A stretch of 64,000 bases of DNA from Mesorhizobium sp. J8 (GTDB lineage Bacteria; Pseudomonadota; Alphaproteobacteria; Rhizobiales; Rhizobiaceae), in NCBI RefSeq assembly GCF_016591715.1, contig NZ_AP024109.1, forward strand, positions 2,666,001 to 2,730,000, read 5' to 3'. Under the pieces are notes generated by a model. The model had not been told where the DNA came from. It did not search any database and saw only the letters and a program-made list of their open reading frames with translations. Position 1 is the first letter of the stretch; the number at the start of each line of letters is the position of its first letter. Positions 3,549 through 40,391 of this stretch are shown here, piece after piece. The position numbers and the translations under genes were made by a program.

Positions 3549-4186
3549 GCCGAACCCCCGCTGGAAAACCGCCAAAACGCACTCGGACTGAGGGAGAGGG
3601 CAAAGCAGACCTGTCACGCGCCCTCGGGCTGGCGCCCGGGTTTGCGTGTTGGTGTTGGGCGTGCCGTTTCGACCGGCACGCTCTCGCCGTGATTGCCCGC
3701 TTCGAAGATGCCGGAACGCGCCCGCCTCAGCGCGCCTTGCCGCCCGCTTCCGGGCGCCAACGACCACGCCAGAGGCGTGTCAAAGCCCGTTCCGTCGCCG
3801 CTCCCCCTCCATCCCTTGCCTCATTTACAAAGACGTCTCGTTCGCCGGACGGGGCTGTCCGGGAAATCTGGATGGCATGCTGCATCGTTGATAAGCGAAG
3901 TCTGAAATGGCGGCCATACACATTGTCGCGAGCGGCGGGCGGCCGCCCTTTTCCTCGCACGCGCAGAGAGGGCAGAGGAGATTGTCGGCATGAGCGCCAG
4001 TCTCTTCTCCCCGACGGGGAGAAGGTGGCCGCGTAGCGGCCGGATGAGGGGCAGCGCCGGCGTCCGCGATCGCGCGCCAACCACCCCGATGCTAAACAGT
4101 CTGTAGAGCGGCCAGCCGTTTCCAGGAAACGAAGAACCGCCTAGAGTTCCGCTGCGTATTGGAACCACCAGGGAGCGGAGCACGCG
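3549..4186. other. 638-base intergenic region containing a rhizobial repeat
   Basis: No convincing gene is seen on either strand. The right half holds a two-hairpin interspersed repeat at 4004-4063. The remainder would hold the promoter of the dioxygenase-like gene (good ribosome site GGGAGCGGAG before 4187) and of the leftward gene starting at 3548. Confidence 0.6.
4004..4063. repeat. Interspersed two-hairpin rhizobial repeat
   Basis: The first hairpin is CTTCTCCCC (4004-4012), loop GAC, GGGGAGAAG (4016-4024). The second is GGCCGC-GTA-GCGGCC at 4027-4041, followed by GGATGAGGGGCAGCGCCGGC. The same tail, GGATGAGGGGCGGCGCCGGC, recurs at 14767-14786. I know this kind of repeat to be frequent between rhizobial genes; its function is not settled. 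Confidence 0.7.
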
Positions 4187-4594
4187 ATGAAAGACGTCAG
4201 GCAACTCGCCGAGATCGCCAGCTATCACGCTCACATCTATTACGGCGACGCGGCCGAGCGCCGGCAGGCCGAATGGCTGCGCGAACGCATCGGCGAGCGT
4301 TTCCGCGTGCGCCTCGGCAACTGGCGCGACGAGCCGGTCGGCCCGCACGAGCAGGCCATGTACCAGGTCTCCTTCGCCACCGAGATCTTCGCCACGCTGG
4401 TTCCCTGGCTGATGCTGAACCACGGGGGCCTGAGCATCCTCATCCACCCCAACACCACCAACCCCAAGCGCGACCACCTGATCGACCCGATCTGGATCGG
4501 CCGCCCACTGCCGGTGAAGGGCGAGGTGCTGGGCGAGGAGGACGAAGCGGAAGAGGCTCTGGAGGTGAATACGGCGCCGACGCTGGGGGTGTGA
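4187..4594 (+). CDS. DOPA 4,5-dioxygenase family protein
   Basis: The 135-residue protein has the histidine-rich pattern of the small extradiol DOPA 4,5-dioxygenase family: SYHAHIYY at residues 12-19 (H14, H16), then GPHEQAMYQV, LNHGGLSILIHPNT and a final HLIDPIWIG. In fungi and bacteria these enzymes open aromatic catechol rings; many bacterial members are uncharacterised. The length matches a complete member, apart from an acidic tail (EEDEAEEALE). The start is supported by a purine-rich site, GGGAGCGGAG, just upstream. It converges with the giant gene that follows, with only 32 bases between the two stops. Confidence 0.85.
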   Translation: MKDVRQLAEIASYHAHIYYGDAAERRQAEWLRERIGERFRVRLGNWRDEPVGPHEQAMYQVSFATEIFATLVPWLMLNHGGLSILIHPNTTNPKRDHLIDPIWIGRPLPVKGEVLGEEDEAEEALEVNTAPTLGV

Positions 4595-4626
4595 GGGGGT
4601 CTCTAACTGGCCTCATTGGGGTTGTT

Positions 4627-7600
4627 TCAGGGGCTGGAGTGGACTCCAAAAGCTATTTCGAGTTGGTCATACGTCAGCAACGTTATGGTGTGGCCTATCC
4701 GTTCTGCAGCAAAGCTCATTGGAACAGTGTGGGCAAAGACCAGAGCGCCACCCATCCGCACGTCGCGGAGCTTAAGATGGGATTGAAACGCAACTGCGTT
4801 GCCCTGTGCAAGTTCCATTCGCTTGAGGTGCTTGCCAAGCAGGTCCGGGCGGCCTTTTTCATCCGCCTTGCCTCGAAATTTGTAAAGTTGCTTGGCAATT
4901 TCGCTGGAAGTTTTGGCGAACTGAAGATCCTTGCATTCGAGGAGCATAACGCGCCCGTCCGAATGCCATGCCAGAACATCGATGTCGCCGGGGTCCTCAG
5001 ATAATTTGCGGCCAAGAACGTGTGAGAATTTCGCACCTCGTTTTGCTTGCCATCCGAGTTCCTTTAGGCGCGCGACAACTCGCTCTTCAAACTCGGCCGC
5101 TTCTTTCGCAACGATGTGATCTCGCCAGCTTCGCATCTCTTTCGTAGCAATAGAACTGAGATCATACTGACCATGGTAGAAATTGTGAAGCTGGACGCGG
5201 AAGGCATCCCGGATCATGCCTGGCGCAACTAACACGTCTGATTCAGCGGACGGTTCCAGACGAAGAATGGGCCGTTGCACGACAGACAATCGCCGCCTGA
5301 ACCGCCACGGCTGTCTATCCTGATCGGTGTAAGGCGGTGGGATATTCTTCCAGCCGTCACGCGGTCGCAGCTCTACTGACGAGATAAACTGTTCCGCAGA
5401 ATCGACATGTTCAGCGAGGTAGCGAAGCAGTTCCGATCTGGGCAATATCTCCCAGGCCTGCCCCGTCTTGAAAAGGCGATTTTCCAGCGCTTCGAGCGCC
5501 GTGCGGAAATCCTTCAGGGATATGCCCATTTCCGCCTGCCATGCGGCCACGAAACGCTCGTCCGTTCGGTTGTTTGCTTGTTCTTCGGTGACCAGTTCAG
5601 GATCATGCAGCAATTCTGAATAGTCGCGGCGGCTTCGGTCGATCCGATCGCTGACGAACGATTCACCCACCGGCGTTACGATGGCGTCGAAGAATGATAC
5701 GTCGATCTGCACCTCGCCGGCTGGCGAGATGCGTATTTCGGGTCGCATGCCCTCGTAGCGAATGGCATCGGAATAACCGCCGAGGTGATGGATCATCATC
5801 GCGAGCGCCATCAGATTGGACAGGTCAAAATCTGCAACCTCGAAGCCGGCATCCACCGGACATTCACAAAGTGCGGCCTCCAAAATGACACGGCTTGCAA
5901 ACCCCGTGGCGTTTGCTTTCAAAATGCTCTCGTAAATCTCTTGGCGGGATTCCTCTGGATTGGCCGAAAGGTCGAGGACAGCGCCTGAGGTCCGCTCCCA
6001 CCGGGACTTGTCGATGATGGACGCTTCGTGATTTTCTATGACTCGGCGAATGAGTGCGCGTCGCTCGAACTGCCTCAGATACTCGCAAAACATTTCCTCT
6101 GCCGCCGTTGTGATCGCGTTTAGCACCCTAGTGCACTCGTCGCGTCCTTTCACCGTGCCGCCCGGTCGCGGGAGCCCATGCCAGCCAAGTCCCAAGCGAA
6201 TGGCAGCATCATCGAACTGGCTAATTTTTACTACCTTCTGCGAAACCGATTCTCGTACATGATCACGGAAGTCCTGAGGCGCGAACGCATGTAGTTGCCG
6301 CGCCTCGGATGAAGGAACGATTTCACACAAAAGCTCAGCAATGCCTACTTTGACCTCTTCTGCAAGAGTAACAACTTGCGTAACGAAAGCTTCTATCAAA
6401 CTAACTTCCGAAACATTGTCGCGGTGAGAGAGACCGTGAAAGAACGGCAGTCCGATTTCGGTAGTGATGACATACCCGTTGTGATCGCAGGACGAACGGA
6501 TGGCGGCCTTTAGGTCGTCTACCGACGGTGGGCTGATCTCCTCAGATCGGATAACCGGCCATGCGGGAGTAATAAGCTTCCATGTCAGAATATCCGGGAG
6601 ATTTGGTAAGCGCTGCGCAAGAATTGGGGCAAGGCGCTCCATCCAAACCATCTGCATTTCAAAGATAGGGTAAAGATGCGAGCGCTCCGCAGAGGGGATG
6701 GTTTCGAGCCACCAGGTTCGACGGCCCGATCTCCATACCCCACGATAGCGTAGCGCTCGGGCGTCAACATGCGAGACGTAGATCCGTTGTACATTCTGGG
6801 GTGAACGTTTACCGCCATCCTTGCGGCGGACTATCAGCACATTGCCTGCTGCATCGCTGACTGCGTGCTTGTCGAAGCGAGCATGGTGCTTAGTTCTGAG
6901 CCGCAAATGCGCATTAGTTGGCACCATGAGCGTTGCTCTCTCCGTGCCATCCGGCATGGCCTCATGTGGCACGACATGACCTCTGTTGTCGTACGCGAAG
7001 CCGATACGAGCAAGGAGCCCATTTATCGCTAACAATGGAAAGCCCATATGTTCCGCTGTAATTTCAGCCAAAAGGAATTTCAACAGCTCGGCAATATTGA
7101 AGTCGTGCCGCCACCCGAGCACATCGAGATCGTAGCTGCTAATACCTTCAACTAGCCAATTGATAGGCCGGGTAAACTTTACAAGTTGTCCGCGACCGAA
7201 GCCGCACAACACGACTAGTGTAAATCCAAGTTTGAAGCCAGGCCGGTTTCGAACGTCGTCAGCTGCTTTGTGTATCGTTTGCTGGAGCTCCGCCTGCGCC
7301 TTCTCACTAGATGGCCCAGGTCGGCTGAAACCAGTTTCATGGAAGCCGGCGAAGTCATCCGTCAGGAGGACGAGTTGAAACCACAACCCCGGCTGAAACT
7401 CGACGGGCTCAGAGGGAACCACATACGAATCTCGCTTCATTTCCGTAGGAGGAATGCCGATATTCGAAATTGACGGGTTCAGCGAGAGTTCGTCAGTCTG
7501 GGCAACAAGCAGGCCGGTCCAGAGTGCGAACATCGCTCCGGCCTCCTGGCAGGTCTCTATCACAGCTCTGCGTATCGCAACTCCCATAGCAGAAGGCAGC

Positions 7601-8346
7601 GCAACGACGATTTCATCTTGGAAATCGATCAACGGTCGCCTTTCAAGCCAACTGTCGCCATCGCCGCCGAAGCCTACGTTGCGCTGTGTTGGCGACAAAC
7701 AAAACCGCTCAAGGGCTCGCCAGCTAACGCCCGCATCGGCCAGATCGCCGCTCGAAAAGGTAACACGCGCCGCTAGTGTCTTCATGGTCGGAAGATGATC
7801 TAGGGGCAATGCATCGAGACCATATTCACCACCACAGCAAAAGGCCGCCAGTTCTGAACGGGCGCAGACGAGGTCGGATAGCAAAAGCATCGCTAGGCAA
7901 GCCTGCTTGAGCGCGGCATACACTCCATGGTCGGGCATATGCTCAACGGCCGTCAGCATATGTTGCAGATGATGGCCGTTAGCCTCCGCCAGCCCTTCGA
8001 GTATCCGGTAGTTTCGTCCCTGCATGTGCACGCGCGCTACAAACACGTCCTCGGCCGCATCCTCCATGTGCGCGAAAGCTTGCCCCACCTGCTTGAACCA
8101 TCTCGCTGCATCCTGCTTATTCGGCTTCTTCTTTCCGGTCGCGCTTGCGACAATCAGATGCGCAATGGCCTCAAGCCTGACGGTGTTGGCTTGAAGTTCC
8201 GGAACTGTAAGCAGTCCGCCAGCGGCAGCAACACCAGCTCTCACATCGTACGAGCGAAAAATCGCTCCGAGGCTCTCGGTCTGCAGCTTTATCGTGTCGG
8301 TCAGCATTTGCTGCGCTGCAAATAAATTGTCAGGAATCTCATGCAT
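4627..8346 (-). CDS. Large orphan protein (1239 aa) with C-terminal PD-(D/E)XK nuclease motif
   Basis: I do not recognise the first 1080 residues. They read as a soluble, mostly helical protein with no membrane segment and no P-loop. The C-terminal 150 residues look like a restriction-endonuclease fold: FEERVVARLKELGW (1086-1099, with E1087/E1088 in helix 1), GDIDVLAW (1120-1127, D1123) and LLECKDL (1136-1142, E1137, K1139). This is the D-x13-E-x-K arrangement of PD-(D/E)XK enzymes, so metal-dependent nucleic acid cleavage is likely. No methyltransferase, helicase or toxin partner lies next to it. Base composition is visibly less GC-rich than its neighbours and there is no clear ribosome site before the ATG. 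These points suggest an acquired, possibly single-gene defence or DNA-processing factor, but a vertically inherited repair protein cannot be excluded. Confidence 0.8.
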   Translation of the reverse strand: MHEIPDNLFAAQQMLTDTIKLQTESLGAIFRSYDVRAGVAAAGGLLTVPELQANTVRLEAIAHLIVASATGKKKPNKQDAARWFKQVGQAFAHMEDAAEDVFVARVHMQGRNYRILEGLAEANGHHLQHMLTAVEHMPDHGVYAALKQACLAMLLLSDLVCARSELAAFCCGGEYGLDALPLDHLPTMKTLAARVTFSSGDLADAGVSWRALERFCLSPTQRNVGFGGDGDSWLERRPLIDFQDEIVVALPSAMGVAIRRAVIETCQEAGAMFALWTGLLVAQTDELSLNPSISNIGIPPTEMKRDSYVVPSEPVEFQPGLWFQLVLLTDDFAGFHETGFSRPGPSSEKAQAELQQTIHKAADDVRNRPGFKLGFTLVVLCGFGRGQLVKFTRPINWLVEGISSYDLDVLGWRHDFNIAELLKFLLAEITAEHMGFPLLAINGLLARIGFAYDNRGHVVPHEAMPDGTERATLMVPTNAHLRLRTKHHARFDKHAVSDAAGNVLIVRRKDGGKRSPQNVQRIYVSHVDARALRYRGVWRSGRRTWWLETIPSAERSHLYPIFEMQMVWMERLAPILAQRLPNLPDILTWKLITPAWPVIRSEEISPPSVDDLKAAIRSSCDHNGYVITTEIGLPFFHGLSHRDNVSEVSLIEAFVTQVVTLAEEVKVGIAELLCEIVPSSEARQLHAFAPQDFRDHVRESVSQKVVKISQFDDAAIRLGLGWHGLPRPGGTVKGRDECTRVLNAITTAAEEMFCEYLRQFERRALIRRVIENHEASIIDKSRWERTSGAVLDLSANPEESRQEIYESILKANATGFASRVILEAALCECPVDAGFEVADFDLSNLMALAMMIHHLGGYSDAIRYEGMRPEIRISPAGEVQIDVSFFDAIVTPVGESFVSDRIDRSRRDYSELLHDPELVTEEQANNRTDERFVAAWQAEMGISLKDFRTALEALENRLFKTGQAWEILPRSELLRYLAEHVDSAEQFISSVELRPRDGWKNIPPPYTDQDRQPWRFRRRLSVVQRPILRLEPSAESDVLVAPGMIRDAFRVQLHNFYHGQYDLSSIATKEMRSWRDHIVAKEAAEFEERVVARLKELGWQAKRGAKFSHVLGRKLSEDPGDIDVLAWHSDGRVMLLECKDLQFAKTSSEIAKQLYKFRGKADEKGRPDLLGKHLKRMELAQGNAVAFQSHLKLRDVRMGGALVFAHTVPMSFAAERIGHTITLLTYDQLEIAFGVHSSP

Positions 8347-8564
8347 AATGCGAATATATTTTTGCAGCTCTGCATGAACAATACTGATAATGGCGACATG
8401 GCCGTTTATGCGCGGTTACCTGTTATCGCATCTGCGCCGCTGTGGCAGAGCCGCCAAGAGGCAAACAATGTCGTCCGGTAGGAATGTGCTAAGGCTTGCT
8501 GGACGAGCGGCACGGCGCTAGGCTACTAGTAGTCACACCATCGCCAAGGCTGGCTGACGTAGTT
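8347..8564. other. Upstream region of the giant nuclease gene
   Basis: The first 60 bases are AT-rich (AATATATTTTTGC near 8352-8364), which fits a promoter for the leftward gene. I see no gene, repeat or attachment-site-like direct repeat here. The segment then passes into the remnant of a MoaD/ThiS-like gene. Confidence 0.5.
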
Positions 8565-8815
8565 GCTTTGGCTCCGCCCTCACAACCTCCGGCCAACCGC
8601 CGCAGGAATGTCTCCGCCACTTCGTGGCAGCTCTTTACTCGACGTACCTCGATCAATCGTCCCGTTAATTGCCACCGCGATTCCGCGATCGACCCAAGGC
8701 TCTATGCGGGATACTGTTCCGCCAGTTTGCGAAACAGCTCCCTGATGTCCTTGGCGTCGTACCTGGCTGCCTCCGGCGACGGCGCTGAGCGGACGCCAAA
8801 GGGGGACTTCGACCA
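8565..8815 (-). pseudogene. Decayed second copy of the MoaD/ThiS-like gene
   Basis: This stretch aligns with the intact gene at 10562-10807. Shared runs include GGATACTGTTCCGCCAG, CTCCCTGATGTCCTTGGC and CTCCGGCGACGGCGCTGAGC. Small insertions and deletions break the frame, and the position of the start codon (CAT on the plus strand in the intact gene) reads CAG here, so the start is lost. The copy is clearly diverged, so the duplication is not recent. No product is expected. Confidence 0.75.
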
Positions 8816-8840
8816 GGTTGGACCGGGGACCGTCTCGCCC

Positions 8841-9023
8841 TCAATCCTCCTCCTCCACCACGAACGACAGCGCGATCAGGTCGTCGACGTCGATGCCGCC
8901 ATGGCCGTTGTCGAGCACGTCCGCGACCTTTTGGAAGGCCAGCATGTCATCCATGCTGAGATTGGCTTGTCTCAGCCTGTCCTGCAAACCCGCCACCCTG
9001 GTTTCCAAAGTCGTGGTGATCAT
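8841..9023 (-). CDS. Small acidic hypothetical protein (60 aa)
   Basis: The ATG at 9023 follows a good ribosome site (ACGGAGGC, six-base spacing), which makes this the better supported of two overlapping frames. The product has a leucine/arginine-containing helical N-terminus (LETRVAGLQDRLRQANLS) and a very acidic end (VVEEED). I recognise no family. It overlaps the end of the next upstream gene by 77 bases, suggesting coupled translation or that one of the two frames is not used. Confidence 0.55.
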   Translation of the reverse strand: MITTTLETRVAGLQDRLRQANLSMDDMLAFQKVADVLDNGHGGIDVDDLIALSFVVEEED

Positions 9024-9306
9024 GCTTGCCTCCGTTCTTTTCCAGGGCCGCGTTCCAGACGCCTAGCATCAGGCAGGTGAACACCACCGGCCCGATGAAA
9101 AGGCTGATTGCTACGCCCACGGCCGCCGCGATGCCCATGCGCTCCGCTTTTCCGGAGATCTTTGGAAGTCCGTCATCGGCCGGGATGAGATCGAGCAGGG
9201 ATAGATCGCGGCGATGGAACGCGCCGTTGTCGTTCGCGGGCATTTCGAACGGCTCCCGAAAAAGAAGCTGCTGCCCGGCAAAAGGGTCGCGGGAGCTCAT
9301 CCGCAT
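8947..9306 (-). CDS. Small single-pass membrane protein, hypothetical
   Basis: The product is 119 residues. The N-terminal half is polar (FREPFEMPANDNGAFHRRDLSLLDLIPADDG), followed by a hydrophobic segment of about 25 residues (MGIAAAVGVAISLFIGPVVF and onward), then a His/Gly/Gln-rich tail (KHDHHDFGNQGGG). The tail is the part that overlaps the 60-residue gene downstream and may be less constrained. The start could be 9306 or the second ATG at 9300. I recognise no family. Confidence 0.45.
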   Translation of the reverse strand: MRMSSRDPFAGQQLLFREPFEMPANDNGAFHRRDLSLLDLIPADDGLPKISGKAERMGIAAAVGVAISLFIGPVVFTCLMLGVWNAALEKNGGKHDHHDFGNQGGGFAGQAETSQSQHG

Positions 9307-9309
9307 GGA

Positions 9310-9513
9310 TCACGCCCCCGAGAACGCCGCCTTGCTGTGACGTTCGAAAAGCGCCAGCTTGGCCGAATAGCCGAGCCTGAGCTTGGCCTTGCAGGCGTCG
9401 CAGGGGAAGGTGCTCACCGCCTTGAACCACGAACCGTTTCGAACGATCTGCTGATGGCAATTCGGGCATTCATAGCGGAGACGGGCGTCCCGCAACTCAT
9501 TGGAAATCGACAC
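9310..9513 (-). CDS. Small zinc-ribbon-like protein
   Basis: The 67-residue protein has two CxxC knuckles, YECPNCHQ (C16, C19) and FPCDACKA (C38, C41), separated by 18 residues, the spacing of a zinc ribbon. Such proteins bind nucleic acid or act as adaptor modules. It ends three bases before the start of the small membrane protein at 9306, so the three leftward genes (9513 to 8841) form a tight cluster. I cannot assign it to a named family. Confidence 0.6.
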   Translation of the reverse strand: MSISNELRDARLRYECPNCHQQIVRNGSWFKAVSTFPCDACKAKLRLGYSAKLALFERHSKAAFSGA

Positions 9514-9746
9514 TGTTCACCTCTGCCCCGGCCCTTGTTCTTTCATCGGATGCCGGCCACCTGTGGGCAAGTGGCCGGCGATCCAGCCGGCTGACGATGA
9601 AGGGACTGATTGCTCGTCAGCGCAGTCCTAATGAGATCGCAGGGTTTATGTTTCACGCGATGGACCAATGCGCCGTCGAATGGGACCTCAGTCGGATCGA
9701 GGGCCGTATCAGCGGAACCTAATGTCCGTCGCGCGCTTATGGCCAG

Positions 9747-10118
9747 ATGAGCAGGCGCGGTCTCGATTTTTTCGACAAATGGATGGCGGAGCATCTGCCC
9801 AACCTGCTGACGGATGACCGCGTCGCGGTGGCTGATCTCGCCGACGAGATGATGAAGGCGGCCGGGCGCGAAGGCATCGCGGCCAGCGAGATCGACGAGG
9901 AAGTCGACAGCGTTTTCGAGGTGATCTTCGAGGCGCTGCAGCATCGCGAAGGCAGCCTGGGGGAGGGCGACCAGGCCGTCTTCGAATTGCTTGCAGGACG
10001 CCTGGCAAGGGAAACCGGCATCACTCAGGAGCAAGCCGGCGAGCTGATCGAAACGACCGGAACCGACTGGAGCTCGCTTCTTCGCGAAGCGCATTTCCTG
10101 AAAGAGCAGGGCGGATGA
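9747..10118 (+). CDS. DUF768-type protein, first of a tandem pair
   Basis: The protein is 123 residues, acidic and helical. It opens MSRRGLDFFDKWMAEHLPNL and continues VADLADEMMKAA and ASEIDEEVDSVFEVIFEAL, the pattern of DUF768, a family I know mainly from Mesorhizobium. The adjacent gene has the same three blocks (RGVAFFGQWITDNVL, ISVSELTSKLFADA, EEIEEEVGSAYEAIL), so the two are paralogues. This copy has an extra C-terminal extension of about 50 residues. Its stop overlaps the next start as ATGA. Function unknown. Confidence 0.75.
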   Translation: MSRRGLDFFDKWMAEHLPNLLTDDRVAVADLADEMMKAAGREGIAASEIDEEVDSVFEVIFEALQHREGSLGEGDQAVFELLAGRLARETGITQEQAGELIETTGTDWSSLLREAHFLKEQGG

Positions 10119-10339
10119 GCGAGCGTGGCGTGGCGTTCTTTGGCCAATGGATCACCGATAATGTGCTGCGCGGCAGCGTGGGCGCGGACATCATCTCGGT
10201 CTCCGAGCTGACCAGCAAGCTGTTCGCCGATGCCAGGGCGGCAGGTATTTCCGAGGAGGAGATCGAAGAGGAGGTTGGAAGCGCCTACGAGGCGATCCTG
10301 GCGGCGATCGTCGGTTCCAAGGAGACCGGGAAACCGTAA
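10115..10339 (+). CDS. DUF768-type protein, second of a tandem pair
   Basis: The product is 74 residues and close to the minimal size of the family. It shares the RG-FF-W opening and the EIEEEVGSAYEAIL block with the gene just upstream, overlapping it by four bases, so the two are probably translated together from one message. No catalytic residues, membrane segment or signal peptide are seen. The family has no established function; the paired, coupled arrangement hints at a heteromer, which is inference. Confidence 0.75.
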   Translation: MSERGVAFFGQWITDNVLRGSVGADIISVSELTSKLFADARAAGISEEEIEEEVGSAYEAILAAIVGSKETGKP

Positions 10340-10420
10340 TGGTCGGACCGCCACCCTGATAGGCCGACCGGCGGAACATTAGTGCACGCTAATTATTAAT
10401 CCTCGATAGGAGGATATGCC

Positions 10421-10498
10421 ATGCACAGCATTATCTATATCGTCGGCCTCGTCGTCGTCATTCTCGCCGTCCTGAGCTTTTTCGGGCTCAGGCGATAG
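10421..10498 (+). CDS. 25-residue single-pass membrane peptide
   Basis: The frame encodes MHSIIYIVGLVVVILAVLSF followed by FGLRR, almost all one membrane helix with two arginines at the end. A strong ribosome site, AGGAGG at 10408-10413, lies seven bases before the ATG, and an AT-rich stretch (TAATTATTAATCC) upstream could carry a promoter. Small IIYIVGLVVVVL-type proteins are widely annotated in rhizobia, which supports a real gene. Its role is unknown; the size resembles regulatory membrane peptides. Confidence 0.75.
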   Translation: MHSIIYIVGLVVVILAVLSFFGLRR

Positions 10499-10561
10499 GC
10501 GGTTACCCGAGCGGTCAGCGCGGGATCTGCGAGCCAGCGATGCCGGCAGGCCGCTCGGCCG

Positions 10562-10807
10562 CTATCCCCCCGCCAATCTCGGCAGCAGGAAAATCTCCGC
10601 GTCCTTCGGCAATTCCTTGCTCCAGGTATCCCGATAGATCGTCCCGTCTATCGCCACCGCGATGCCGCGGTCGATCCAGGGCTCTATGCCGGGATACTGT
10701 TCCGCCAGCTTGCGGAACAGTTCCCTGATGTCCTTGGCCTCGATGTCGTGCTTGGCCTTGCCTCCGGCGACGGCGCTGAGCGAGCCCCAAAGGGTGACTT
10801 CGACCAT
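10562..10807 (-). CDS. MoaD/ThiS-family sulfur-carrier-like protein
   Basis: The 81-residue protein has the beta-grasp length and ends in the GG dipeptide used by MoaD and ThiS for C-terminal thiocarboxylation. Features are a first strand VEVTLWGSL, a helix IRELFRKLAEQYPG and a final strand with EIFLLPRLAGG. MoaD provides sulfur for molybdopterin synthesis; ThiS does so for thiamin. This gene lies just downstream of a molybdenum hydroxylase operon on the same strand, which favours a link to the molybdenum cofactor, but orphan carriers of this kind also serve other sulfur transfer paths. A decayed copy lies at 8565-8815. Confidence 0.7.
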   Translation of the reverse strand: MVEVTLWGSLSAVAGGKAKHDIEAKDIRELFRKLAEQYPGIEPWIDRGIAVAIDGTIYRDTWSKELPKDAEIFLLPRLAGG

Positions 10808-10867
10808 TACCGCCTCAAGGTGCGCCGATATTCAGGTGAGGCCGGCTTGCGAATGACGGCTTCCTGC

Positions 10868-13744: not shown

Positions 13745-14604
13745 TATTTGCCTCCCGCACGCTTGTAGGCGATTGCCGCGACGCGCCTTGCCAGCACGCC
13801 CGCCACTTTCCGTCTGAATTCGATGGTTCCGCGCTTGTCGTCGATCGGCCGGCAGGCGCCGGAGCAGATCTTGGCCAGCCGCTCCAGCGTCGCTTCGTCG
13901 AGCTTGGAGCCGACCAGCACCTGCCCCGCTTCCTCGACCAGAAGCACCGTGGGCGCCGCGGCGCCCAGCGCCACGCGCGCGGTCTTGATCGCGCCGTGAT
14001 CATCCAGCGTCAGGTTCACGCCGGCGCTCACCACCGCGATGTCCATCTCGGTGCGCGGAATGAAGCGCAGATAGGCGTCGCCCGCATGGTCGGGCCGCTT
14101 GTCGAGCAGGATCGCCTCGATGATCTCGCCCTTGGCGAGCGAGGTGCGGCCCGGCCCGGTCGGCACAGTTTCCACGGCAATGGTGCGCTTGCCAGAAGGC
14201 CCGGCGACCACCGCCTTGGCCCCGGCCGCCACCAGCGCCGGCACGCTGTCGGCGGCGGGCGAGGCGTTGCACAGATTGCCGGTGATGGTACAGCGGCCCT
14301 GCACCTGCTTGGAGCCGATCAAATTGGCCGCCTCGACCACGCCCGGCCACGCCTTGCGGAGCGCCTTGTTCTCGCCCAGCACCGCGCAGGGTACGGCGGC
14401 GCCGATGCGGAAGCCTTCGGCCGTTTCAGTGACGTCGCTCAGGCCGCCTATGCGCTTGATGTCGACGATCAGCTCGGGCTCGATGAAGCCGCCCTTCATC
14501 CTGACCAAAAGGTCGCTGCCCCCGGCCAGGATGGCGGCCGGTCCTACTGCCTTGGCGAGCTCGCCAACGGCATCTTCGATTGAAAGCGGACGTATGTAAC
14601 GCAT
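13744..14604 (-). CDS. Molybdenum hydroxylase, FAD-binding medium subunit
   Basis: The protein is 286 residues. The FAD-binding signatures of the family are present: AILAGGSDLLVRMK near residue 32 and TITGNLCNASPAADSVPALVA around residue 105, with a C-terminal CO-dehydrogenase flavoprotein domain. It accepts electrons from the iron-sulfur subunit and passes them to NAD or another carrier. It is the first gene of the operon, and the promoter should lie in the 220 bases upstream, which also contain an interspersed repeat. Confidence 0.9.
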   Translation of the reverse strand: MRYIRPLSIEDAVGELAKAVGPAAILAGGSDLLVRMKGGFIEPELIVDIKRIGGLSDVTETAEGFRIGAAVPCAVLGENKALRKAWPGVVEAANLIGSKQVQGRCTITGNLCNASPAADSVPALVAAGAKAVVAGPSGKRTIAVETVPTGPGRTSLAKGEIIEAILLDKRPDHAGDAYLRFIPRTEMDIAVVSAGVNLTLDDHGAIKTARVALGAAAPTVLLVEEAGQVLVGSKLDEATLERLAKICSGACRPIDDKRGTIEFRRKVAGVLARRVAAIAYKRAGGK

Positions 14605-14825: not shown

Positions 14826-15353
14826 TTATTCGTTCGAACTCCATACCGGCTCGAACGATACGTTCCGCAACCCGGCCTTGCGCACCCGCTCGACGAACAC
14901 GTCATTGACGAAGACGGGGGAAGCCCGCATCGGCAGCTTGAACACCTCCGCCGTGCCGATCTTCTTGGCGTCGAAGGCGTATCGCTCGATCGCCAGGATG
15001 CCGCCGTCGTCGAACCGCACGATTTGCGAGTGCGCCTCGTCCAGCGCGTCGATCACATTGGTGACATTGAGCAGCCAGACCTCCTCGCCGCGCAGCGCGA
15101 CGAGCTCGCCATAGGGGCCGAGCGCCACGGCGAGCGCATCGACGGCCGGCCGCCGCAACAGCGGCGCGTGCTCGCCGAGCCACGGGAAGTCGGAATAGAG
15201 CCGTTCGCCTTCCTCGACGCGCCGCATCACCGGCGGCTCCCAGCCCTCCAGCGATCGTCCGTCGAGGCTGAAAAATTCCTCGTAAGCGTCGTCATCGGCC
15301 GGCAGCACCCATTCCTGCCCCTCCGACACGGCGAATTGATGGATGGTCGTCAT
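14826..15353 (-). CDS. Imm11-like (DUF1629) protein
   Basis: The 175-residue protein has a C-terminal segment, FKLPMRASPVFVNDVFVERV followed by AGLRNVSFEPVW, which fits the Imm11/DUF1629 family (immunity MXAN_0049 type): a strand, the phrase FVND-FVE, and an end on FEPVW. In polymorphic toxin loci such proteins neutralise a cognate toxin. No toxin gene or secretion tag lies nearby, so it is either an orphan immunity protein or a family member with another role. There is no signal peptide or membrane segment. It is transcribed alone, divergent from the VanZ-like gene. Confidence 0.5.
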   Translation of the reverse strand: MTTIHQFAVSEGQEWVLPADDDAYEEFFSLDGRSLEGWEPPVMRRVEEGERLYSDFPWLGEHAPLLRRPAVDALAVALGPYGELVALRGEEVWLLNVTNVIDALDEAHSQIVRFDDGGILAIERYAFDAKKIGTAEVFKLPMRASPVFVNDVFVERVRKAGLRNVSFEPVWSSNE

Positions 15354-38645: not shown

Positions 38646-40391
38646 CTACGAACCGTAACCGACAGTTGGCGCGGCGCGGATGGTCGGCGCGAACGATCCG
38701 GTCACCACCGTGCTCCGCTGCGCGGCTTTACCCGGCTGCCGCAGCACCTCTGCGCTCGGCCCGAACGCCTCGATCACGCCGCCGCGCAAGACCATCACAC
38801 GGTCGCATGCTGCTGCGATTGCGGGGCGATGCGTGATCACGATTGTGGTGACCCCCGCGGCGCGGGCCGCCGCGAGCACCGCTTCCAGCGCTGTCTCACC
38901 GGCCCCGTCGAGATGCGTGCTGGGCTCGTCCAGAACCAGGATGCGCGGATTGCCGTAAAAGGCGCGCGCGAGCCCGATCCGCTGCCGCTCGCCGCCCGAC
39001 AGCGTGCCGGCGATCGCCGTCTGGTAGCCGTCGCGCAGCGAAAGGATCAACTCATGCGCCTCCGCGCGTTTCGCCGCTTCCACGATCGCCGCGTCGTCGG
39101 CCTTTGCGTCGAAGCGCGCGATGTTCTCGGCGATCGAACCGGGGAAAAGCTCCACCTCCTGCGCCAGATAGCCGATATGCCGGCCGAGTTGGTTTCCGTC
39201 CCAGGTCCTGAGCTCGGCGCCGTCGATCCTGACCGAGCCGCCGCTTGGCTGGGCTGCGCCAACGAGCAGCCGCGCCAGTGTCGATTTGCCTGCGCCGCTC
39301 GGGCCGACGATCGCCACCGCTTCGCCCGCGGCTATCGCGAAGCTCAACCGCTTCAGGATCGGCTCGGCGCCGAACGTGGCATTCGGGGCGATGAAGAAAA
39401 GATCCTGCGCGGAGATCGCGCCGGTCGGTTCGGGCAGGATGAGCTTGATCGCCTGAGCCGGCTGCGCCGCCAAGGCTCCTCTGAGGCGCGTCCATGCGCG
39501 CCTGGCTTCGACGAGCTGCCGCCAGGAACCGATCAACTGGTCGAGCGGCTGCAGCGCGCGCGACGACACCAGCGAGGAAGCGAAGATCATGCCGGCCGTC
39601 ATCTCGCCTTTGAGCACCAGCCAGGCGCCGGTGCCGAGGATCGCCAGCTGCAACATCATGCGCAGCGCCCTGGAAGCGCCGCTGAAGACGGCGTTGGCGC
39701 CGGCCGAGCGGTCATGCAGGACAAGCGCCTCGGCCACGTGCCGTCCCCATGCGCGCGCGGCATTTTCCACCATGCCCATGGCGCGCAGCGTGTCGGCGTT
39801 GCGGGCAAAGGCCTGCTCGACCCGGCTGGCCAAAGCCGAGCGCTCCGCCGAGAGCGCATCGTTCCTGCCGATGGCAAGCTGGTTGGCGAAGACCAGCACG
39901 ACGAGCAGCGCCGCGCCGCCGAACGTGACCCAGAACAACAGCGGGTGGATCAGGTAGAGCAAGGCGAGGAAGACCGGCGCGAAGGGCAGGTCGAACAGCA
40001 CCGAAACGCCGCGCGAGCGGATGAAGGCGCAGACCGAGGCAAGGTCGGCGAGCGGCGACGAAGCATCCCGGGAGCCGAGCGAAGCCGCGAACGCTCTGGT
40101 GCCCAGCCTGTCATTGACCATTGCTGCGACGCGCTGCGTGTAGACGGCGCGGATGGCATCGAGGAAGCCTAGGAAACCAAGCGCCGCGACCGCCATGACC
40201 GACAGGTAGACGAGCGTCTCGACGCTGGAGGAGGGCAGCACCCGATCATAGACCTGGAGCAGGTAGAGCGGGATCACCAGCAGCAGAAGGTTGATAAGCA
40301 GCGAGAACAGGCCGACATCGGTTACGGCGCGCGGGAACATCGGCCGCAGGCCGGCCTGCCTGATCGCATCCGGAGCGCTCTCCTGTGACAT
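38646..40391 (-). CDS. Type I secretion ABC ATPase/permease (PrsD family)
   Basis: The 581-residue protein combines a six-helix membrane domain (from VGLFSLLINLLLLVIPLYLL) with an ATPase domain: Walker A VGPSGAGKSTLARLLVG, signature LSGGERQRIGLARA, Walker B ILVLDEPSTHLD and switch His in ITHRPA. There is no N-terminal C39 peptidase or CLD, matching PrtD/PrsD-type exporters of RTX proteases and glycanases that read C-terminal or internal signals. It is placed between the substrate gene and the adaptor gene, all on the minus strand. Confidence 0.92.
   Translation of the reverse strand: MSQESAPDAIRQAGLRPMFPRAVTDVGLFSLLINLLLLVIPLYLLQVYDRVLPSSSVETLVYLSVMAVAALGFLGFLDAIRAVYTQRVAAMVNDRLGTRAFAASLGSRDASSPLADLASVCAFIRSRGVSVLFDLPFAPVFLALLYLIHPLLFWVTFGGAALLVVLVFANQLAIGRNDALSAERSALASRVEQAFARNADTLRAMGMVENAARAWGRHVAEALVLHDRSAGANAVFSGASRALRMMLQLAILGTGAWLVLKGEMTAGMIFASSLVSSRALQPLDQLIGSWRQLVEARRAWTRLRGALAAQPAQAIKLILPEPTGAISAQDLFFIAPNATFGAEPILKRLSFAIAAGEAVAIVGPSGAGKSTLARLLVGAAQPSGGSVRIDGAELRTWDGNQLGRHIGYLAQEVELFPGSIAENIARFDAKADDAAIVEAAKRAEAHELILSLRDGYQTAIAGTLSGGERQRIGLARAFYGNPRILVLDEPSTHLDGAGETALEAVLAAARAAGVTTIVITHRPAIAAACDRVMVLRGGVIEAFGPSAEVLRQPGKAAQRSTVVTGSFAPTIRAAPTVGYGS

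Follow-up and report, generated by a model that had tools for sequence, protein, structure and literature searches.

A predicted distant member of the Upx family at a probable defense hotspot of Mesorhizobium sp. J8

The locus

The 64,000-nucleotide stretch of Mesorhizobium sp. J8 analyzed here (contig NZ_AP024109.1, positions 2,666,001 to 2,730,000; 'the window') carries at positions 4627-8346 a single long gene, termed upx-like below, whose protein of 1239 amino acids (aa) is, judged by similarity over nearly its full length, almost certainly a divergent member of the Upx family. Upx is a described one-protein antiphage defense, and the gene is of an already known kind. An earlier note on this DNA had reported the frame as an orphan. 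The 1239-codon frame is indeed intact, but it lies on the minus strand, which the note omitted—the plus-strand reading is riddled with stops—and it is no orphan. Its principal features are:

4627..8346, minus strand: upx-like gene, 1239 aa, single open reading frame (ORF); PADLOC Upx 8e-214, PDB 9wuf_A 1.2e-148
4687..5103, minus strand: C-terminal PD-(D/E)XK nuclease domain as modeled, residues 1082-1220; restriction-fold matches of the model, invariant motif
4930..4980, minus strand: codons of D1123 (4978-4980), E1137 (4936-4938) and K1139 (4930-4932), each present in 188/188 aligned sequences and in 9wuf

The gene is AT-richer than its flanks, as the note had it: GC is 0.549 versus 0.640 for the whole window, which served as the reference, and GC3 is 0.585 versus a median of 0.743 for the 34 mechanically listed window ORFs of at least 250 aa, of which three have a lower GC3. 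No Shine-Dalgarno-like 4-mer is seen upstream of the ATG, again as noted, but this is weak evidence because such a 4-mer precedes the first ATG in only 20 of 79 homologous loci. Compared with the Bosea copy, dN/dS is 0.09 (dS 1.6, near saturation); with the Neorhizobium copy dS is saturated and no ratio is obtainable. Codon comparison thus indicates that the gene is under purifying selection, as a long-term average that says nothing on the present-day activity of this copy. The gene could be a non-functional passenger, decaying like the broken gene copy at 8599-8815 that it adjoins and without a recognizable ribosome site; given the intact frame, the low dN/dS and the retention of every invariant residue of the family, we regard this as very improbable.

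Kinship with Upx

The PADLOC Upx profile (PDLC02221) is matched from position 31 to 1254 of 1271, and the chain of the solved Upx structure, whose fold the protein shares, at an identity of about 28–29%. The N-terminal part, some 1080 residues of which the note had listed as unrecognized, is matched by PADLOC, by NCBIfam and by the PDB chain. A Pfam scan of the protein returned no family, none even at E<=10, yet relatives in the protein database are given PF28173.1.

Searching proteins gave 130 relatives with E<=0.001 (7994 candidates scored; 120 listed), and scanning genome contigs gave 133, of which 80 were kept. Among the matches listed, the closest named relatives come from Mesorhizobium, Neoaquamicrobium and Aminobacter, at 80–82% identity, followed by Ochrobactrum and Bosea at 78%; such near-equal distances across genera fit a traveling gene. 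The contig relatives are mostly from Proteobacteria, with some labeled Planctomycetes, Firmicutes or other phyla, several of these being contigs of metagenome-assembled genomes. Two loci on viral contigs and six plasmid records have upx-like matches; the phage records have none, and nothing in the viral structure library matches the protein at E<=0.001. Two 4-kb plasmid records of Salmonella enterica, OX345047.1 and OX345461.1, match residues 430-1217 at 29.6%.

The nuclease domain

An alignment of 188 sequences was assembled from the upx-like protein, the found proteins of at least 1130 aa (12 of 121 were shorter and left out) and ORFs from 79 of 82 loci, a long ORF being absent from L096, L162 and L166; the two sets overlap in part, for instance in the Bosea and Litoreibacter proteins. 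The motif D1123-x13-E1137-x-K1139, which the note had spotted within GDIDVLAW...LLECKDL, is present in all 188 and aligned in 9wuf, and because it is invariant it is not a product of chance. C1138, F1086, G1098 and G1120 are likewise invariant, and H1173 and R1176 (187/188) and E1149 (186/188) nearly so. The acidic helix residues E1087 and E1088, also proposed in the note, are not conserved—they are glutamate in only 91 and 68 of the 188, the invariant neighbor being F1086—and we reject them as catalytic.

The model of the C-terminal domain matches restriction folds, the kind of fold the note had expected. As modeled, then, the C-terminus is a restriction-like fold with an invariant PD-(D/E)XK site, bearing both the D and the ExK that mark this superfamily.

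The middle of the protein

Two further regions resemble known enzyme folds, weakly:

6979..7551, minus strand: FokI/BspD6I-nuclease-like domain, residues 266-456, with no conserved D/E-x-K pair
6301..6852, minus strand: zincin (M1/M61)-like scaffold, residues 499-682; HExxH is absent from the whole protein

With no HExxH zinc motif anywhere in its sequence, the protein is not assigned to M1/M61, and regions unmatched in the fold library are not taken as a sign of a new fold. Four residues on or beside the zincin-like scaffold, N644, E647, R683 and H686, might form a second functional site, with a catalytic or ligand-binding pocket through which the nuclease is gated; we hold this to be doubtful.

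An exchangeable chromosomal site

The surroundings of the gene are organized as follows:

4187..4594, plus strand: left border gene, DOPA 4,5-dioxygenase family (PF08883, 8.6e-33); border DNA in 105/144 genomes
4600..8580, no strand: exchangeable segment, with unrelated cargo in L068, L070 and L071 at nearly the same two boundaries
8599..8815, minus strand: incomplete, frameshifted duplicate of the right border gene; 81% identity to 10582-10806, frames broken
8836..10347, no strand: block of small ORFs to the right of that segment, found in many relatives; many of the first 20 share most of it at 84–88% DNA identity
10562..10807, minus strand: right border gene, encoding 81 aa that end in GG; resembles MoaD/ThiS by eye (no library scan); copies in relatives

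The left border stretch (4100-4620) is matched in 105 of 144 genomes and the right one (8500-10820) in 133. The interval between the borders was taken from 40 relatives, 20 with both borders close together on one contig and 20 of the same arrangement. Loci L068, L070 and L071 cease to resemble the window at 4596-4599, at most five bases past the stop of the DOPA gene, and resemble it again from 8576-8589; like L067 and L074, they show no similarity within 4700-8400. In these loci the whole Upx segment is thus replaced as one block. In L169 the border genes are separated by about 0.7 kb that holds no ORF of at least 150 aa. Considered for a methyltransferase such as classical restriction-modification systems (type I, II or IIG) carry, the window ORFs at 9214-9594, 9747-10118 and 4187-4594, and the larger flanking ones, have no PADLOC match.

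Within the genus, the gene is far from conserved in all relatives: an upx-like match occurs in 5 of 146 genomes, that of the window included. Of the other four, G110 matches at 33% identity with one in-frame stop, G015 at 23% over near full length, and G042 and G012 in part, close to contig ends. This patchy occurrence speaks against a housekeeping enzyme of DNA repair or recombination, an idea that we reject as hardly credible in view also of the atypical composition, the near full-length Upx match and a swap site shared with defense genes.

Copies in other genera do not occupy the same chromosomal site: neither border protein has a tblastn match at E<=1e-4 in the 82 loci of upx relatives L087-L168, and a common site was therefore rejected. 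Around those relatives, clusters of neighboring genes recur in at most 6 of 79 loci; judged by eye, the commonest include apparent serine and tyrosine recombinases, and so mobile elements may carry upx relatives there.

Cargo in relatives

PADLOC was applied to 60 of 222 cargo ORFs, hand-picked mainly by size (40 of 133 listed ORFs of at least 90 aa in the first set, 20 of 89 of at least 150 aa in the second), from 38 sites; L169 and L170 stand outside the scan. Twenty of the 60, at 14 of the 38 sites, matched at E<=1e-10:

L068: DRT8 with RT-associated PDDEXK protein
L071: PifA, part of the profile
L072: type IIG
L073, L078: LmuB
L082: BovA
L083: type II methyltransferase and LmuB-like protein
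L084: PtuAB and type I M and S
L176: PycC-like, weak
L179: PDC-S25
L181: PDC-S08
L183: PtuA-like and type I S
L184: dGTPase
L187: HamB-like

One of 20 control ORFs from the window matched (Fisher p 0.017). That one, 38646-40391 (minus strand, 581 aa), matches mad3 (2.3e-31) and mad8 (4.3e-15) over partial length and is possibly an unrelated ATPase. Outside the defense count fall L077, with a Schlafen/AlbA domain (Pfam), and L080:7212-10244 (1010 aa), in which Pfam finds NB-ARC and TPR domains and PADLOC a weak match of SIR2/pAgo type (3e-5), and which looks like a defense gene of the NLR kind.

Taken together, it is very probable that the upx-like gene is exchangeable cargo at a defense hotspot between two convergent chromosomal genes. 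Since the ORFs tested at 24 of the 38 sites have no PADLOC match at E<=1e-10, the hotspot is a ready place for finding undescribed defense genes. Candidates are the large cargo ORFs (599–1032 aa) L079:15742-18399, L172:441-2240, L186:6534-9194 and L188:1328-4426, none with a PADLOC match at E<=1e-10; the first has weak ZorB matches (7e-5).

How cargo may move

The note was right about a decayed gene copy beside the upx-like gene: 8599-8815, whose frame is broken, matches part of the right border gene (10562-10807) at 81% identity. Additional border-gene fragments of at least 60 bp turn up at 13 loci of the first set of 20 (DOPA in 9, mostly its 3' part; MoaD-like in 8) and at 7 of the other 20; because they recur across loci, we ascribe the copy in the window to the site rather than to the Upx gene. 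Such fragments of the DOPA gene, chiefly of its 3' part, divide cargo modules in L069, L071, L072, L073, L078, L187 and L174, several beginning near window positions 4275-4300.

The remaining ORFs of at least 80 aa in the window segment overlap upx or straddle an edge. No recombinase was recognized among its ORFs, which received no test aimed at recombinases. The longest words common to both edges are only 8–9 bases (chance level not computed), and a transposon or att-type boundary was rejected on that ground. Exchange of cargo by homologous recombination in or around the border genes would fit these observations. In L079 (G137:C6:82830-102800), a piece of the MoaD-like gene is joined directly to a piece of the DOPA gene, and the identical junction is seen in two places roughly 1 kb from each other (13840-14036 and 14855-15134, window orientation). 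Among the matches listed, no other of the 144 genomes spans this junction, and insertion of circles is not put forward as a general mechanism.

Proposed function

As a whole, the best explanation is likely that the gene encodes a divergent antiphage protein of the Upx family and is hotspot cargo open to exchange. The long N-terminal part might recognize a phage structure or a feature of phage DNA and restrain the nuclease; upon recognition, the C-terminal domain would cut the invading DNA. Recognition and cutting would probably reside in one chain, with neither a methyltransferase nor an ATP-driven motor. We lean towards this direct cutting of invading DNA. The note's proposal of a horizontally acquired, single-protein antiphage or DNA-processing system with an N-terminal sensor or target-recognition region is supported in part.

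The same protein might instead act abortively, infection activating a nuclease of low selectivity that would attack host DNA or RNA too and so stop the infected cell. We consider this unlikely, though worth keeping in mind: no fused or adjoining signal-producing gene was recognized, and Upx is placed in PMC10855318 under nucleic acid degradation rather than abortive infection, a classification and not an experiment.

Several points weigh against antiphage protection by hotspot cargo. Functional equivalence with Upx is not given, since the protein scores 782.5 bits against the NCBIfam equivalog Upx_antiphage (NF042954.1), whose curated cut-off is 1900, and it is not filed there; its antiphage activity is a prediction from sequence. 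Among the ORFs tested, 24 of 38 sites lack a PADLOC match at E<=1e-10. The enrichment over control ORFs is indicative only, because ORFs that share an operon do not count independently, both sets were hand-picked and one control matched. Homologous exchange, finally, is inferred, with no event observed.

A bolder idea, which we think improbable, is that Upx is a composite of disused enzyme folds. The FokI/BspD6I-like domain, minus its active site, would read DNA; the zincin-like core, lacking its zinc motif but with a new invariant N644/E647/R683/H686 center, would sense infection; and the C-terminal domain alone would cut, such genes rotating through one site in the genus by border-gene recombination with no dedicated integrase.

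New here are the placing of an apparent orphan in the Upx family, the swap site and a revised set of conserved residues; the 188-sequence alignment supplies the exact invariant residues for testing Upx.

Comparison with known systems

A literature search, with most subscription journals outside its reach, found no paper naming 9WUF and, among the papers listed, no description of the Upx mechanism and none of a hotspot between DOPA-family and MoaD-like genes. Few papers mention Upx at all, and the search for the hotspot brought up one on integration sites in Sinorhizobium. From Upx proper (PDLC02221; NF042954.1; 9wuf) the protein differs by its identity of only 28–29% to 9wuf and its sub-cut-off NCBIfam score, and its protection is predicted. 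Residues 266-456 differ from the nuclease domains of FokI and N.BspD6I/R.BspD6I2 in having no conserved D/E-x-K, so that the likeness is a lead, not membership; residues 499-682 differ from the M1/M61 zinc aminopeptidase core by the absent HExxH.

As for the site, Upx is reported to be almost confined to GI-Hotspot 6 of Pseudomonas PAGI-1 islands (PMC12629846), and E. coli hotspots are described as occupied by mobile elements with varied defense cargo (PMC10121019). Both lie in another genus and between other border genes than those of the window. The E. coli cargo is reported to be mostly on mobile elements, whereas in the window segment no recombinase was recognized, and partial border-gene copies lie between modules. 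What the Pseudomonas and E. coli hotspots appear to share with the Mesorhizobium site is the principle: one chromosomal position, many alternative defense cargoes.
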